DNA from: Acholoe squamosa
Lineage: Eukaryota; Annelida; Polychaeta; Phyllodocida; Polynoidae
DNA length: 64,000 nt
Direction: 5' to 3'
NCBI GenBank assembly: GCA_949317995.1
Contig: OX439037.1
Location: 18,154,324 to 18,218,323, forward strand
Under the pieces are notes generated by a model, which made no database searches, was not told where the DNA came from, and saw only the letters and a list, made by a program, of their open reading frames with translations. A program made the translations under genes and the position numbers. Positions 12,851-59,060 of this stretch are shown in pieces (position 1 is the first letter of the stretch; every line of letters starts with the position of its first letter).

Positions 12851-13185
12851 AGGCTTTGTATCATATCAAGACCTGGTTCTAGCCAACCACCTCTCGTCAG
12901 TCCCTGTGGAGCAGTGCATAGGGAGTTGGATTTGGGATCTGAGACTGCAGGTTCAAGCCCTGCCCTGGCTATGAAATTTCGTGGGTTTTAACATGTAACA
13001 TATGACATGTAAGGTGTGCAGGTTATCCATGGATGACCGCACCGGGTGCCTGTTATCCTTGGATAACGGCACACCTTACAAAAGTCGTGATGCAGGCATT
13101 ATGGTGTGCAATATCGACAGGTATGCGCATGGGAATATCCAGGAAAAGCACTTAGTATCCCAGAATTCGTGGAATAACTCTAAAT
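12851..13185 (+). mobile_element. tRNA-derived SINE, copy 1
   Basis: A tRNA-like head has an A-box-like TGTGGAGCAGTGCATAGG and, about 40 bp on, a B-box-like GGTTCAAGCCCTG. A body with paired TTATCC.TGGATAAC inverted motifs and the words GTGCAATATCGACAGGTATG and GGGAATATCCAG follows. The element is matched in inverse orientation at 23345-23685 over about 335 bp. It has no coding capacity. It lies directly upstream of the Gypsy pol fragment. Confidence 0.8.
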
Positions 13186-14499: not shown

Positions 14500-15047
14500 T
14501 TAAAGTGCAGAAAGGCATGTGACACTGTTGGAAGCCATGTAATAATAGTGAGAAACTCATGCAAGTGGTTATTCCAACTATTATACGAAGTATACCAAAG
14601 TCTTTCCACTATCGAATCATAAAGCTGTAACTTGTGCTGAGGACTTTGTGAAAGGATGGGTACTGGCCTTTGGTGTGCCGCTAATGCTGCACAGTGATCT
14701 GGTCAGAGAATTCGAATCAAATCTCTGGCAGGGTATGTGCAAGTATCTAGCTATCTGCAACCCATACCGACCTCAGAGTGATGGATTGGTTGACAGGTTC
14801 AATAGACGTCTAAACCAGGTTCTCAAGTCACTCGTAAATGAAAATATGGATGACTGGGATGAGCAGTGTCATTTCGTGACGCATGCTTATAACAGTACGG
14901 TGCATTTGATTACTAATTGTTCACCGAACCTATTAGTATTCGGAGAAGATTTGATAATGCCTGCTGATCTGGTATTTGGGGTTGTAGGAATGGACCAGGA
15001 ACTACATTGTCATGTGGTATTTGTTGAATGTTTACGAGATTTAAAAA

Positions 15048-15099
<52 letters not shown>

Positions 15100-15370
15100 T
15101 CTGTATGAATCAATTTGGAAAAGAGTGCCAGCTGGCAGAAAGTGGGGTATGATGTGGAAAATGCGGAAATTCAAAACCGGAGATAGAATGTTGAGATTAC
15201 ACGAGCCACTTAGACATATTAAATTAGCATCTAATTGGGATGGTCCATTCATCGTGACTCAAGTTATTAGTGATTGTACAATGATCATCAGATCAGACCT
15301 TGGAGGAGTCCAATGTTGCTCGACTGAGAGAATGGTCTGGGAAGGAGACCTCCATAGAAATGTACGGTGA
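14500..15370 (+). pseudogene. Gypsy integrase, decayed, with an (AT)n expansion
   Basis: The largest clean piece (14648-15370) carries the integrase core: AFGVPLMLHSDLVREF, with the D of the DDE triad in HSD, and YRPQSDGLVDRFNRRLNQ, where the usual glutamate of VERF is aspartate. A C-terminal part with NSTVHLITNCSPNLLVFGED and LHEPLRHIKLASNWDGPF follows. A pure AT microsatellite inside the frame adds an isoleucine/tyrosine run without breaking it. The upstream zinc-binding part is frameshifted. The integrase would insert the retroelement cDNA; this copy is inactive. Confidence 0.88.
15051..15096. repeat. (AT)23 microsatellite
   Basis: An uninterrupted AT dinucleotide run inside the integrase pseudogene. 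It accounts for the alternating Ile-Tyr frames on both strands. Confidence 0.97.
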
Positions 15371-20433: not shown

Positions 20434-21031
20434 CACTAATCATCCAACAGTTGGTTATACTTTACCCACTACGGTGGTCCTTATAGCCCATTTACAATTA
20501 GGGCTGAGAGTGTAGTCAGCTGCCGGATGCATGCCTTCAGTACATCATCACCTGCCTTGAAGCTGCTGACGACACCGTCACCAGCAGACGTTAAGTCACT
20601 GACAGCTGTTTAGAGATCTGGCTAAAACAGTTAAGGCCAGCTTCATTCTACAGGATTTCCCAGCAGATTGCACTCCCAGTAAAGAAATGTCTTTCGTGGC
20701 AGGGTAATGGGACAGGAATCTTCGAGGAAGAGCACTAATCACCCAACAGTTGTTTCTACTGTACCCACTACGGTGGTCCTTATAGCCCATTTACAATTAG
20801 GGCTGAGAGTGTAGTCACCTGCCGGATGCATGCCTTCAGTACATCATCACCTGCCTTGAAGCTGCTGACGACACCGTCACCAGCAGACGTTAAGTCACTG
20901 ACAGCTGTTTATAGATCTGGCTAAAACAGTTAAGGCCAGCTTCATTCTACAGGATTTCCCAGCAGATTGCACTCCCAGTTAAGAAATGTCTTTCGTGGCA
21001 GGGTAATGGGACAGGAATCTTCGAGGAATGG
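20434..21031. repeat. 299-bp tandem duplication
   Basis: The block from CACTAATCATCCAACAG to CAGGAATCTTCGAGGAA is repeated immediately downstream with a 299-bp period (for example, TACCCACTACGGTGGTCC at 20463 and 20762). Only a handful of substitutions and a one-base slip separate the two units, so the duplication is recent. No coding content is supported. Confidence 0.93.
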
Positions 21032-33482: not shown

Positions 33483-33978
33483 CTCACCACTAACAGCAGT
33501 GAAGATCCCTACAGAAGAGCCCATGGATAAGACCACAGGCCCTGTAAGGGCCAATCTAAATACACTGATCAGTGACATATACAAGACGCCTCTGGGAAAG
33601 ACAGACACAGCAACTCTGTACAACAAATACCCCAGACCAGACAACCTGGATAGCCTACACAAAACTATTAAATTTGACAAATCAGTCCTAGAACCAACAC
33701 AAACCATTGAGTACCTGGGTTTCACTCTACACTCACCCACACTAACAATCACAATACCAAACAAGAAACAGGCCGACACCACGCAAAAGGTGGATGTCCT
33801 TAAGGTAAAAATATGCACCATAATGAAATTCTCACAGGTTCTAGGAGCCCTAGCAGCCACAGAACCAGGGAATGACAGAGGAGAGGTCCTAACCAAAAAG
33901 CTCATCATTGCAAAAGACCAGGCCTTAATAAGGACACAGGGCAACTATGACAAATTAATTCCCCTAAGAGGTTCATAA
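33483..33978 (+). pseudogene. Rearranged fusion: gag segment joined to DIRS RT tail
   Basis: The first 182 bp (33483-33664) are a second copy of gag nucleotides 32535-32716, differing at scattered positions. At the point where gag continues into RINQEI, this copy jumps in frame to an RT C-terminal segment: TIKFDKSVLEPTQTIEYLGF, then FSQVLGALAATEPGN and DQALIRTQGNYDKLIPL, typical of the DIRS RT connection region. The palm and fingers, including the catalytic aspartates, are missing. The junction is a deletion or template switch that left an open frame of 213 codons. Confidence 0.82.
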
Positions 33979-34374
33979 AACCAACTCGGAGAGAGAACCT
34001 GCAGTACCTCCCACAAGCAAAGAAAACTTACACAGAACAGTGCCCCCTGTACAAAGACTTCTCAGACACAGGGTGGGGTGCCTACATACCTGAAATCCAC
34101 TCAGAATATAGGGAGGAATTGTGTGGAGAGATAGAACCCCTTCACATAAACATAAAAGAAATCCTAGCAGTTCACAGAGCACTGCTACATTTAAAAAAAA
34201 CTCTAACAGGAAAACACATACACATGTTCATAGACAACACTACAGCCATCAGCTGCCTCAATAAAAGGGGATCTAGCCAATCCATTCCATACAAAAAAGC
34301 CACTGAGAGTGTATTCACTGCAGGAGAATGGACACTGAGCCCTGAAAGCCAACAGAAAATCATTATCAGCCTTT
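33979..34374 (+). pseudogene. DIRS RNase H, 3'-truncated
   Basis: Following the RT tail in another frame, the translation contains DFSDTGWGAYIP (first catalytic Asp region), NIKEILAVHRALLHLKK (catalytic Glu) and HMFIDNTTAISCLNKRGSSQ (next Asp), the DIRS RNase H signature. The domain stops at the junction with the minus-strand LINE fragment near 34375, so the tyrosine recombinase that should follow has been lost or displaced. Confidence 0.85.
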
Positions 34375-34375
34375 A

Positions 34376-35095
34376 GTTGAATATTAGTATCCACCCTTTT
34401 ACCTTTCCACAGACAATTTTATCAGACCAAAAGCATCTTGGGTCATCTTTGTAATGTTCCAAGTCACTAACAACATCTATGCACCTGTTGCGTGTCGATT
34501 CTGCCCGTATCTTTTTGTCATGTTCACAGACAGTTTGGAGGTGGGGGTTGTATTCACCAGAGTCATTTTTTTCATTTTGTTGAACGCTTTTCTTTTTTTT
34601 ATTCACTAGGAAATCAGCCTTGGGAGTATACCCCTTAGGCTTATTCACCTTGATTCTTATGTTCTTAATCGGGCAATATTCATCCAGATATTCATTGATG
34701 AAAATATATATACTATAGTATTTCTCAGTCGGGTCATCATTACCTTGCAGATTCCAATCATACTCATGAATGGCTTCCCTTACACTATTACTATCATAAT
34801 TCCGGTAAGACCTCCCTCTGAGCTCTTTATAACCAGATCTAGATGTTCTTTTTTGTTTTTTAATAACATATACCAGTACATGATCTCCAACCAAATCTCT
34901 AACCAACCCATGTTCATTTACAAATCTGCAGTTAGTATAGATATGATCAAGTGTCGATTTTCCCCTTTGGATGATTTTGAGTGGGGCCACTTGTCAAATA
35001 AGTCAGACCATTTTTTCTCAAAATTTGTCAAAATTTAGGACTATTACGGGAGCGAGCATTGACATTGAGATCTCCTATAATCCAAATTTCTCTAT
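34376..35095 (-). pseudogene. Non-LTR retrotransposon (LINE) endonuclease fragment
   Basis: On the minus strand, the apurinic-type endonuclease motif EIWIIGDLNVNARSRNSP is followed, after a stop and frame change, by a 205-codon frame with STLDHIYTNCRFVNEHG and the LVGDHVLVYV block, corresponding to the C-terminal half of the endonuclease. A linker with IREYDWNL-like and FWSDKIVCGKVKG segments follows. The reverse transcriptase is absent. Both ends are abrupt: the 3' side abuts the DIRS RNase H and the 5' side ends near a poly-G run. The enzyme would nick target DNA to prime reverse transcription; this copy is dead. Confidence 0.78.
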
Positions 35096-57296: not shown

Positions 57297-57300
57297 ATTG

Positions 57301-57521
57301 TGTAGGGGTTCGTTCCCCCGTCGGGTGCCCAGAGCCTTCAGAGGGACTGTTCACTTGATTGTGTCACTCCCCCTATGTATACCATACCGATCCAGGGTAG
57401 TTGGAAGGTAGAGAATGTCAGGCCAGGGGAAGTAGCTCAGGGGTAGAGCTTCCGCTTCGAAGTTGGAGGGTCCCGGGTTCGAGTCCCAGTTTCTCCATGA
57501 CATTTTCTGCTGACCACTACA
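57301..57521 (+). repeat. 5' LTR of the miniature element
   Basis: TGTAGGGGTTCGTTCCCCC at the start, GACCACTACA at the end. Identical in length to the 3' LTR; differences are C/G near 57329, A/G at 57488 and T/C near 57508. It contains the tRNA-like gene at 57426-57497. Confidence 0.92.
57426..57497 (+). tRNA. tRNA-Ala-like gene inside the 5' LTR
   Basis: All cloverleaf parts are present: acceptor GGGGAAG/TTTCTCC with G3-U70 (the alanine identity pair), D arm GCTC-AGGGGTA-GAGC, a 7-base anticodon loop TTCGAAG (anticodon CGA by position) on a stem with one mismatch, a 5-base variable loop, T loop TTCGAGT, and discriminator A. The T stem CCGGG/CCCAG has one mismatch that is repaired (CCCGG) in the 3' LTR copy. 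Internal A box (TAGCTCAGGGG) and B box (GGTTCGAGTCC) are intact. A TTTT pol III terminator lies 5 bases after the end (57503-57506). Overall closest to eukaryotic tRNA-Ala, with the anticodon altered from CGC. It may act as a promoter or primer source rather than a decoding tRNA. Confidence 0.8.
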
Positions 57522-57522
57522 G

Positions 57523-57538
57523 TGGTGGAGAAACCGAG
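57523..57538 (+). promoter_or_regulatory. Primer-binding site matching the LTR-embedded tRNA
   Basis: TGGTGGAGAAACCGAG starts one base after the LTR. It is the complement of CCA plus discriminator, acceptor 3' strand (TTTCTCC) and the T-stem end of the embedded tRNA: 14 consecutive bases match, then one mismatch. A canonical tRNA-Ala 3' end (..GGCATCTCCA) would mismatch at two of these positions, so the PBS fits the embedded version better than the usual nuclear one. Confidence 0.82.
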
Positions 57539-57761
57539 TGGTCCTGCCTCGCAAGGGGGACCTTTAGAGAGCTCGGTACCTGGGCCGGTATGGTATAGAC
57601 AAGCGCTTCAACTTGCTAGTGCTGGGAGACTTGGAAACAGGTGGCACCCACAGTAGGTCCTGGGAACAGGAGCTACACTTGCTGCTGTGTGTGACTCAGT
57701 ACTGGTACCGTTCAGACTGGACTGGAGGACCGGTTCTGGCGGGATACCGTTGAAGCTGGTT

Positions 57762-57769
57762 GGGAGGAG
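57762..57769 (+). promoter_or_regulatory. Polypurine tract
   Basis: GGGAGGAG lies directly before the 3' LTR start, the standard plus-strand priming position. Confidence 0.85.
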
Positions 57770-57990
57770 TGTAGGGGTTCGTTCCCCCGTCGGGTGCGCA
57801 GAGCCTTCAGAGGGACTGTTCACTTGATTGTGTCACTCCCCCTATGTATACCATACCGATCCAGGGTAGTTGGAAGGTAGAGAATGTCAGGCCAGGGGAA
57901 GTAGCTCAGGGGTAGAGCTTCCGCTTCGAAGTTGGAGGGTCCCGGGTTCGAGTCCCGGTTTCTCCATGACATTTTCCGCTGACCACTACA
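57770..57990 (+). repeat. 3' LTR of the miniature element
   Basis: Direct repeat of 57301-57521 with a 469-bp period and three substitutions. It is followed by the ATTG duplication. Confidence 0.92.
57895..57966 (+). tRNA. tRNA-Ala-like gene inside the 3' LTR
   Basis: Same as the 5' copy but with a perfect T stem (CCGGG/CCCGG). Terminator TTTT at 57972-57975. In a reverse-transcribing element both LTRs are copied from one, so the two tRNA copies are expected to be near-identical, as seen. Confidence 0.8.
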
Positions 57991-57994
57991 ATTG

Positions 57995-59060
57995 TAAAGC
58001 CACCTGGGATGAAATGCCCTTAAGGTGCCACGGCTACTCTAGCTTCATAGTAAAACTGGCTATAAAGCATATATTGTTATATATATCGAGTTATGAAGCT
58101 TTCCCTCATCTTCTACTTAAGTTTTCAATAGATCTTTCATCAACATTTCAGACATTCCACAATTGTTCAACAGAGACTTCTGACATAAAGTTCAGTATAG
58201 ATATTTTAAAATTATTCCATCAAATTTTGTTGAAAATCTTGTTTTTTTGGATAATTCTGGCATGATAGTGTCTTCTCTCAGCTAAAAAAAGTAACATGAT
58301 ATATAGAATCTGTAGAGTTTGATGCATGTGTTTCAGGTAATGGTGAAACAGTCAAGTTTTATAAATTCTAAGTAAAATATCATTCGGTACATAGATTTTT
58401 TTTCCAATAATTGCTTTTCAGTGTAAACACACCTTTTCCAAGACTAATTACCCAGAATGCTAAGTAATTCTATCCTGATCATCTACTGCATATGCAAACC
58501 CTTGCCTCTCAGAGGCTGAGAAATTAAATGTGAATGTTGGTCATTTTGGGATCACAAGCGTATAATGTGGGTGCTTTCTGAAAGTATTATTTTTTTCAGG
58601 GTCCTGAAGAACTGGTTCCACTAATGCTGGTTGGGCAATTTTTTTGCTAATTCAACAGTTTTTATACAGCAAATGTATAGAAAAGTATCCTTTGCCCACC
58701 TATATCAGTTAAACCTGCCCATTGCACTGTGACTAGCATGAAACCAAGCACATAAGGTGAACTTCCTGGCTATTTTCATGGGCCAGACACTTACCTGTTC
58801 AGCAATGTAAATTTCAGGGAAAAATGGGCGACAACAGGTGAAAATTACAGTTTTCAGAAGTAACATATACAAAAAATTTCTATCCTATAATGATGTTCAT
58901 AGCAAAAGAAGCTAAAAAAGAATGTTTTTGTTCCATTCACAATACATAGACAACAAAATGTTACAGGGTGGATTGAAATTGATAAAGGCACTAATTGTGG
59001 AATCTCCCCTTTACGACCCCTTAAAGAAAATCATGCTGTATGAAATTAGCCCAGCAATGC
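57995..59060. other. Interior of the long-TIR element, no gene
   Basis: AT-rich and non-coding. The 131-codon frame overlapping the left edge is mostly LTR translation. Nothing is recognised. Confidence 0.5.

Follow-up and report, generated by a model that had tools for sequence, protein, structure and literature searches.

An LTR element of 690 bp was located at positions 57301–57990 of the window, the 64-kb stretch of DNA that was analysed as a whole. Its features are as follows (window coordinates).

57297..57300: target-site duplication ATTG, left copy (4 bp)
57301..57521, forward strand: 5' LTR (221 bp, TG...CA, 98.6% identity with the 3' LTR)
57426..57497, forward strand: tRNA embedded in the 5' LTR (72 nt according to ARAGORN; RF00005, 45.2 bits)
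57503..57506, forward strand: TTTT, candidate pol III terminator just 3' of the 5'-LTR tRNA
57522..57769, forward strand: internal region (248 bp)
57523..57536, forward strand: primer-binding site (PBS) TGGTGGAGAAACCG, 14 nt complementary to the tRNA 3' end plus CCA
57579..57597, forward strand: internal arm of a 19-nt inverted repeat, 89% complementary to the LTR at 57378–57396 and 57847–57865
57762..57769, forward strand: purine tract GGGAGGAG adjoining the 3' LTR (8 nt, short; read by eye)
57770..57990, forward strand: 3' LTR (221 bp)
57895..57966, forward strand: tRNA embedded in the 3' LTR (72 nt according to ARAGORN; RF00005, 51.3 bits; 14-nt PBS match with CCA)
57972..57975, forward strand: TTTT, candidate pol III terminator in the 3' LTR
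57991..57994: target-site duplication ATTG, right copy (4 bp)

The general layout described in the first-pass annotation was confirmed. The 221-bp LTRs differ at the three positions it had counted (57329/57798, 57488/57957 and 57508/57977), the last two of which are plausibly due to CpG decay. The ATTG duplication was found at both ends of the element (57297–57300 and 57991–57994), and both the PBS, which starts one base 3' of the 5' LTR, and the polypurine tract were recovered. The element had also been described as lacking an ORF, and no stop-to-stop frame of at least 130 aa was detected inside the 690 bp; one frame of 131 aa (57870–58265) overlaps its end. A motif search for AATAAA and ATTAAA gave no match within the element.

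The embedded tRNAs, at 45.2 and 51.3 bits, exceed the RF00005 cut-off of 29 bits, and a search of the whole window at the Rfam gathering threshold returned nothing but these two genes, with no 5S rRNA among the results. Their designation as tRNA-Ala-like holds in part: G3:U70 and A73, both alanine-like, are present, but the anticodon assigned by ARAGORN is CGA (Ser). The short variable arm, in turn, is at odds with a serine tRNA. Minimum-energy folds of four tRNA sequences tried did not give a cloverleaf. The A and B boxes claimed for the LTR tRNA are legible in the sequence if judged against the usual box motifs. Likewise, the predicted T4 terminator is represented by a TTTT 3' of each tRNA, with no other T4 run in the element. 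The scarcity of such runs was rejected as proof of pol III transcription, as shuffled sequences contain on average 1.8 T4 runs (P 0.75 for two or fewer).

Several other features of the window were recorded. A sequence with a B-box-like motif at about 12898–13040 resembles stretches in loci L008 and L132 and has the appearance of a SINE-family head. A frame at 14552–15370 resembles a Gypsy-type integrase (named hits: Mytilus proteins, 32–46% identity), the region 33951–34376 gave a weak, sub-threshold RNase H-like match, and two tandem copies of 299 bp each (97% matches) lie at 20434–21028.

Complementarity of primer-binding site and embedded tRNA

The PBS had been reported to be complementary to the embedded tRNA over 14 consecutive bases. 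This holds for the 3' LTR, in which the last 11 bases of the tRNA plus CCA are the exact reverse complement of the 14-nt PBS; the tRNA of the 5' LTR matches over just 12 nt, because its T-stem base at 57488 is A instead of the G found at 57957. The PBS begins with TGG, the complement of CCA, and CCA is not encoded in the LTR: the tRNA is followed by TGA in the window element and by TGA, GAG or GGA among the copies inspected. Since the PBS thus pairs with a CCA that the LTR does not encode, the implied primer is a processed, CCA-tailed tRNA. By our arithmetic, the naive probability that 11 nt match next to TGG at a fixed offset is close to 4^-11, and it rises considerably once every tRNA-Ala-like end counts as a match. 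The three-way covariation described below is a stronger argument than the match probability of a single element.

In one copy (L060) the match comprises 18 nt (TGGTGGAGACACCGGGAT), compared with 14 in most of its relatives. Retroviral copying of a tRNA primer proceeds for 18 nt, as far as a modified base, and the match in L060 has the length expected of a tRNA primer copied up to such a base. The host tRNA-Ala(CGC) genes share the outer GGGAT with L060 but carry TG in place of its CA, and the LTR-type tRNA therefore provides the better fit to its PBS. A genome pattern of 19 match positions, two of them free, was fitted by 41 junctions. One of these (C1) overlaps an antisense tRNA place, 20 bases after a sense tRNA place, and is noted as a lead only.

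These observations bear on the idea that the complementarity serves in cis, with the 3' end of the 5'-LTR tRNA pairing with the PBS about 25 nt downstream to form a regulatory or self-priming hairpin. An 11-nt segment, TGGAGAAACCG, is able to pair with CGGTTTCTCCA in the same RNA, and self-priming is known from LTR elements such as Tf1, which are mentioned in the accessible text of PMC6934838. Such a hairpin nevertheless appears improbable, given that the TGG of the PBS matches a CCA that is not encoded after the tRNA in the copies inspected, and that the match in L060 is extended to 18 nt in the direction of primer copying.

Family structure and covariation

The earlier proposal depended on the existence of a family beyond this locus, and such a family was found. 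Genome-wide, 43 near-full-length matches of 96–100% were obtained (a number that includes the window's own element, with tandem copies overlapping), and a single LTR/PBS pattern yielded 455 junctions in the 1.48-Gb genome, compared with 0 for the reversed control pattern. The notion of the element as an isolated curiosity was ruled out by these two counts. The 64-kb window harbours no second copy, and a pattern scan of viral contigs for the element gave 0 matches. Loci were picked by similarity to the window element, by tRNA score and by the LTR/PBS pattern, so that the sample is not random; from the 100 junctions listed among the 455, the first 30 were read as loci, together with 20 further stretches.

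As expected from the annotation, other copies also carry the LTR tRNA. The RF00005 search scored 63 of 97,417 candidates (maximum 68.8 bits). ARAGORN assigned all 30 of the tRNA loci fetched to Ala(TGC), and a same-strand partner was present 454–459 bp away in 21 of them, some of the loci overlapping. At the one locus compared in detail (L053), the tRNA sits in the LTRs of a sister subfamily and is matched by that element's own PBS (TGGTGGAGACACCG); other loci agree with it.

The family contains young copies. LTR mismatch ranges from 0 to 10.1% across 75 complete elements taken from the loci read, 50 of which have identical 4-bp duplications, and ten elements show no mismatch at all, including three with identical duplications (L022, L078 and L084). 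Some elements with mismatch-free LTR pairs stand in tandem arrays, and their LTRs may have been made alike by exchange within the array. Tandem arrays of the element with shared LTRs, in which two junctions lie about 468 bp apart, were observed at L003, L021 and L104.

The inverted repeat connects the internal region to the part of the LTR upstream of the tRNA. Both of its arms were unchanged in 48 of the 75 elements, and in 21 the search motif missed an arm; in the old element L082, two changes are compensatory and one pair is broken. This pattern hints at a folded template RNA.

For the covariation analysis, 103 distinct junctions were retrieved by a motif for the LTR end followed by TGG and AGA. 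Four without a readable tRNA and five more in which the called tRNA did not end in TCTCCA were set aside, leaving 94. As the scan required AGA in the PBS, sites altered at these bases went uncounted. The test for co-variation of the PBS and the acceptor stem, suggested in the first-pass annotation, was positive in three lineages, which combine the following LTR tRNA ends and PBSs: ..GGTTTCTCCA with ..GAAACC, ..GGTGTCTCCA with ..GACACC, and ..GGTATCTCCA with ..GATACC. Comparison of tRNA base 67 with PBS base 10 showed 91 of the 94 counted junctions to be concordant (A/A 56, C/C 34, T/T 1), and the 14-nt match was perfect in 67. The three discordant junctions are L120, L065, which is a visible mosaic of two subfamilies, and L083, which carries a Ser-type tRNA in the 5' LTR and a T-type tRNA, matching the PBS at base 67, in the 3' LTR. 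Of the five junctions dropped for their tRNA ends, three are concordant at base 67 (L034, L110 and L121), one is discordant (L100) and one could not be read (L037). When both LTR tRNAs could be read (68 of 75 elements), concordance extended throughout the element in 67 cases (38 A, 28 C, 1 T), and the remaining element has two different LTRs.

The third lineage is represented by L082, whose 3'-LTR tRNA ends in ..GGTATCTCCA, its 5'-LTR tRNA in ..AATATCTCCA and its PBS in ..GATACCG. A genome-wide pattern admitting G or T at the PBS base returned 8 junctions, all of the T type. Five of these were read, namely L082 and four others (L140–L143), and base 67 was A opposite the PBS T in 4/4 of the latter. 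The three lineages represent few independent covariation events, because copies within a lineage share descent. Moreover, the tRNA 3' end and the PBS are about 25 nt apart, so that recombination moves both together and exchanges need not be independent.

The two main subfamilies were represented by 31 and 22 elements, for which the selection criteria were the tRNA call, the length and the divergence of the LTRs, and differences were considered fixed if present in at least 80% of each subfamily. Upstream of the tRNA, 3 of 125 aligned columns differ in either LTR. Within the two LTR tRNAs, the numbers are 16/71 and 14/71. The stretch 3' of the tRNA shows 8 in 24 columns, in part owing to an indel that shifts the alignment, and the internal region 3 in 195. 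The PBS differs at 1 of 14 positions, and this change is the complement of the sole tRNA change among the last 11 bases. Divergence between the subfamilies is thus far higher in the tRNA than in the surrounding sequence, and the single PBS change restores pairing. Furthermore, L106 combines the LTR and internal lengths of the sister subfamily with the tRNA and PBS of the first. Exchange of the LTR tRNA between lineages, with the PBS following, is the best explanation for these sequence patterns.

It may be asked whether the element is simply an ordinary member of the Helenus group, with a match that arose by coincidence and common descent and plays no role. The small number of independent lineages, the tight linkage of tRNA end and PBS on the element and the handful of discordant junctions are all consistent with this view. 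However, the tRNA was replaced and the internal region acquired 3/195 changes outside the PBS, and yet the PBS changed at the base needed and to the base needed, an outcome to which our arithmetic gives a chance probability of about 0.6% (4 changes over 209 columns, with 1 in 3 bases fitting). As the match is repeated in the third lineage, we consider a mere coincidence very improbable.

Host tRNAs and the source of the primer

A standard tRNA-Ala pattern matched 97 places in the genome, mostly in an array at C15:5.088–5.141 Mb. In this host array (C15:5088097–5141497), TGC and CGC anticodons mostly alternate, with one AGC among those listed. Reading of 13 host tRNA-Ala genes showed ten to end in ..CATCTCCA and the others in ..CGTCTCCA, ..CATCTGCA and ..GTTCTCCA. 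None of these 13 tRNA-Ala genes shares the 3' end of the embedded tRNA; an ordinary host gene of that kind had been named in the first-pass annotation as a finding that would speak against it. The commonest host end differs from the PBS types at 1–2 of 14 positions. The calculated pairing energies of the PBS with the LTR tRNA of its own lineage are -26.5, -29.0 and -27.8 kcal/mol, compared with -20.6 to -25.1 kcal/mol for the four host ends; the margin over the tRNA of another lineage is as small as 0.7 kcal/mol in one case. The 13 host tRNA-Ala genes that were read were rejected as an explanation of the PBS, since all of them match it less well than the LTR tRNA.

A PBS of the host type (..GATGCCGAGTGGT) was not found genome-wide in an LTR-junction pattern that permits it, nor by eye among the 100 junctions listed of the 455. 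The genome contains the embedded 3' end (..CCCGGTNTCTCCA, with A or C as the next base) at 1,555 further places. Among the 100 matches listed of these, 64 form same-strand pairs 409–757 bp apart, with about 0.02 pairs expected by chance, which suggests the existence of several more tRNA-bearing LTR families. The 36 unpaired ones could represent solo LTRs, fragments or genes of the host.

These data have to be weighed against the possibility of a host-encoded primer tRNA that shares this 3' end and belongs either to another isotype or to a tRNA-Ala isodecoder other than those read, the LTR tRNA acting as a pol III promoter and nothing more. The match to the PBS would then reflect shared ancestry, because the LTR tRNA would descend from that host tRNA. 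LTR retrotransposons, like retroviruses, are understood to take their tRNA primers from the host. In addition, the host comparison covered 13 genes of one isotype, tRNA-Ala, only, and the 36 unpaired matches among the 100 listed of the 1,555 leave room for a host gene with the shared end. In the accessible text of PMC10886601, the Helenus groups that Kojima analysed are assigned primers from the host. On the other hand, three different host tRNAs would be required, one to match the LTR tRNA of each lineage. The commonest tRNA-Ala end read is off at 1–2 of the 14 PBS positions, and 0 junctions had a host-type PBS in the pattern admitting it. Overall, a host primer is rather unlikely.

Because the PBS matches the embedded tRNA better than it does the host tRNA-Ala genes that were read, the element probably supplies its own primer. 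We estimate a probability of about two in three that it is a TRIM of the Helenus/TRIMp3 kind whose LTR contains a pol III tRNA gene providing the primer for reverse transcription. The analysis thereby supports the self-primer interpretation put forward in the first-pass annotation, in which we infer transcription, processing with CCA addition, priming and the source of the enzymes. On balance, we also favour the idea that promoter, CCA-tailed primer gene and PBS constitute one mobile unit, in which primer and PBS evolve in concert and are exchangeable as a cassette.

According to this self-primer model, pol III would transcribe the LTR tRNA and mostly terminate at the adjoining TTTT, after which the pre-tRNA would be trimmed and receive CCA in the same way as a host tRNA. 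The CCA-tailed 3' end would then anneal to the 14-nt PBS of a template RNA, made either by pol II or by pol III reading through from the 5' LTR into the 3' LTR. Pol III is expected to halt at the TTTT downstream of the 5'-LTR tRNA, ahead of the PBS, unless it reads through, and with a read-through template the terminal redundancy would be the tRNA itself. Reverse transcriptase and integrase would be provided by an autonomous element. If the LTR tRNA were swapped between lineages, the PBS would follow, because the primer 3' end would be copied into the PBS in each round.

If the model is true, an element equipped with a gene for its own primer would represent a new way to secure reverse transcription, and the retention of a whole tRNA in the LTR, beyond the promoter boxes, would be explained. 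Primer choice and the co-evolution of primer and PBS would be directly testable in a young and abundant family. The numbers of tRNA genes reported for such genomes are possibly inflated by LTR tRNAs.

Relation to known elements

The first-pass annotation knew of no such arrangement in animals but allowed for a published case. Animal TRIMs with a tRNA in their LTRs have already been published (PMC10886601), so that only the match to the primer is new. A literature search on self-encoded primers, which was judged by titles and had subscription papers mostly outside its scope, yielded no other paper on the subject.

In Tf1-type self-priming, the template RNA's own end acts as the primer, in contrast to the separate, LTR-encoded tRNA proposed here. 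Common to both is that the element provides the primer (Tf1 is named as an example of self-priming elements in the accessible text of PMC6934838). The same source describes biv-TRIM of bivalves, an animal TRIM for which no canonical PBS was identified and, as far as this text goes, no LTR tRNA is mentioned. PbTRIM of ants (PMC3532108) shares with the window element its occurrence in animals and the 4-bp duplications; its PBS corresponds to tRNA-Leu, and the accessible text does not mention an LTR tRNA. The plant TRIM Cassandra, as described in PMC10886601, also carries a pol III gene in its LTR, but this is 5S rRNA instead of a tRNA.

The closest relatives are the Helenus (TRIMp3) elements, TRIMs with an LTR tRNA that were reported by Kojima in 2024 from fungi, animals and a plant (PMC10886601, here and below as far as its accessible text goes); a 2026 meeting report, in the part available, merely cites this work. 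Helenus elements are smaller than 1000 bp and lack coding capacity, although one family reaches 1263 bp. Those of animals are mobilised by Gypsy elements, and pol III transcription from the LTR is unproven (PMC10886601). They have in common with the window element tRNA-derived A and B boxes in both LTRs, a PBS and a polypurine tract, as well as 4-bp duplications (in animals), many copies and tandem arrays, the latter reported for one Helenus family (PMC10886601). With its 690 bp, its non-coding sequence, LTR tRNAs, PBS, polypurine tract and 4-bp duplication, the element described here falls within this group. The primers assigned to animal Helenus elements are Lys, His, Ile, Pro, Glu, Ser, Leu, Trp and Arg tRNAs (PMC10886601), whereas the one implied here is Ala-like. 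Moreover, no complementarity between LTR tRNA and PBS was found in Helenus, and the LTR tRNA was stated not to contribute to priming (PMC10886601), a negative statement on Helenus-type elements to which the PBS match to the LTR tRNA in three lineages does not conform. The element is therefore a Helenus by its anatomy and departs from the published account in its primer.
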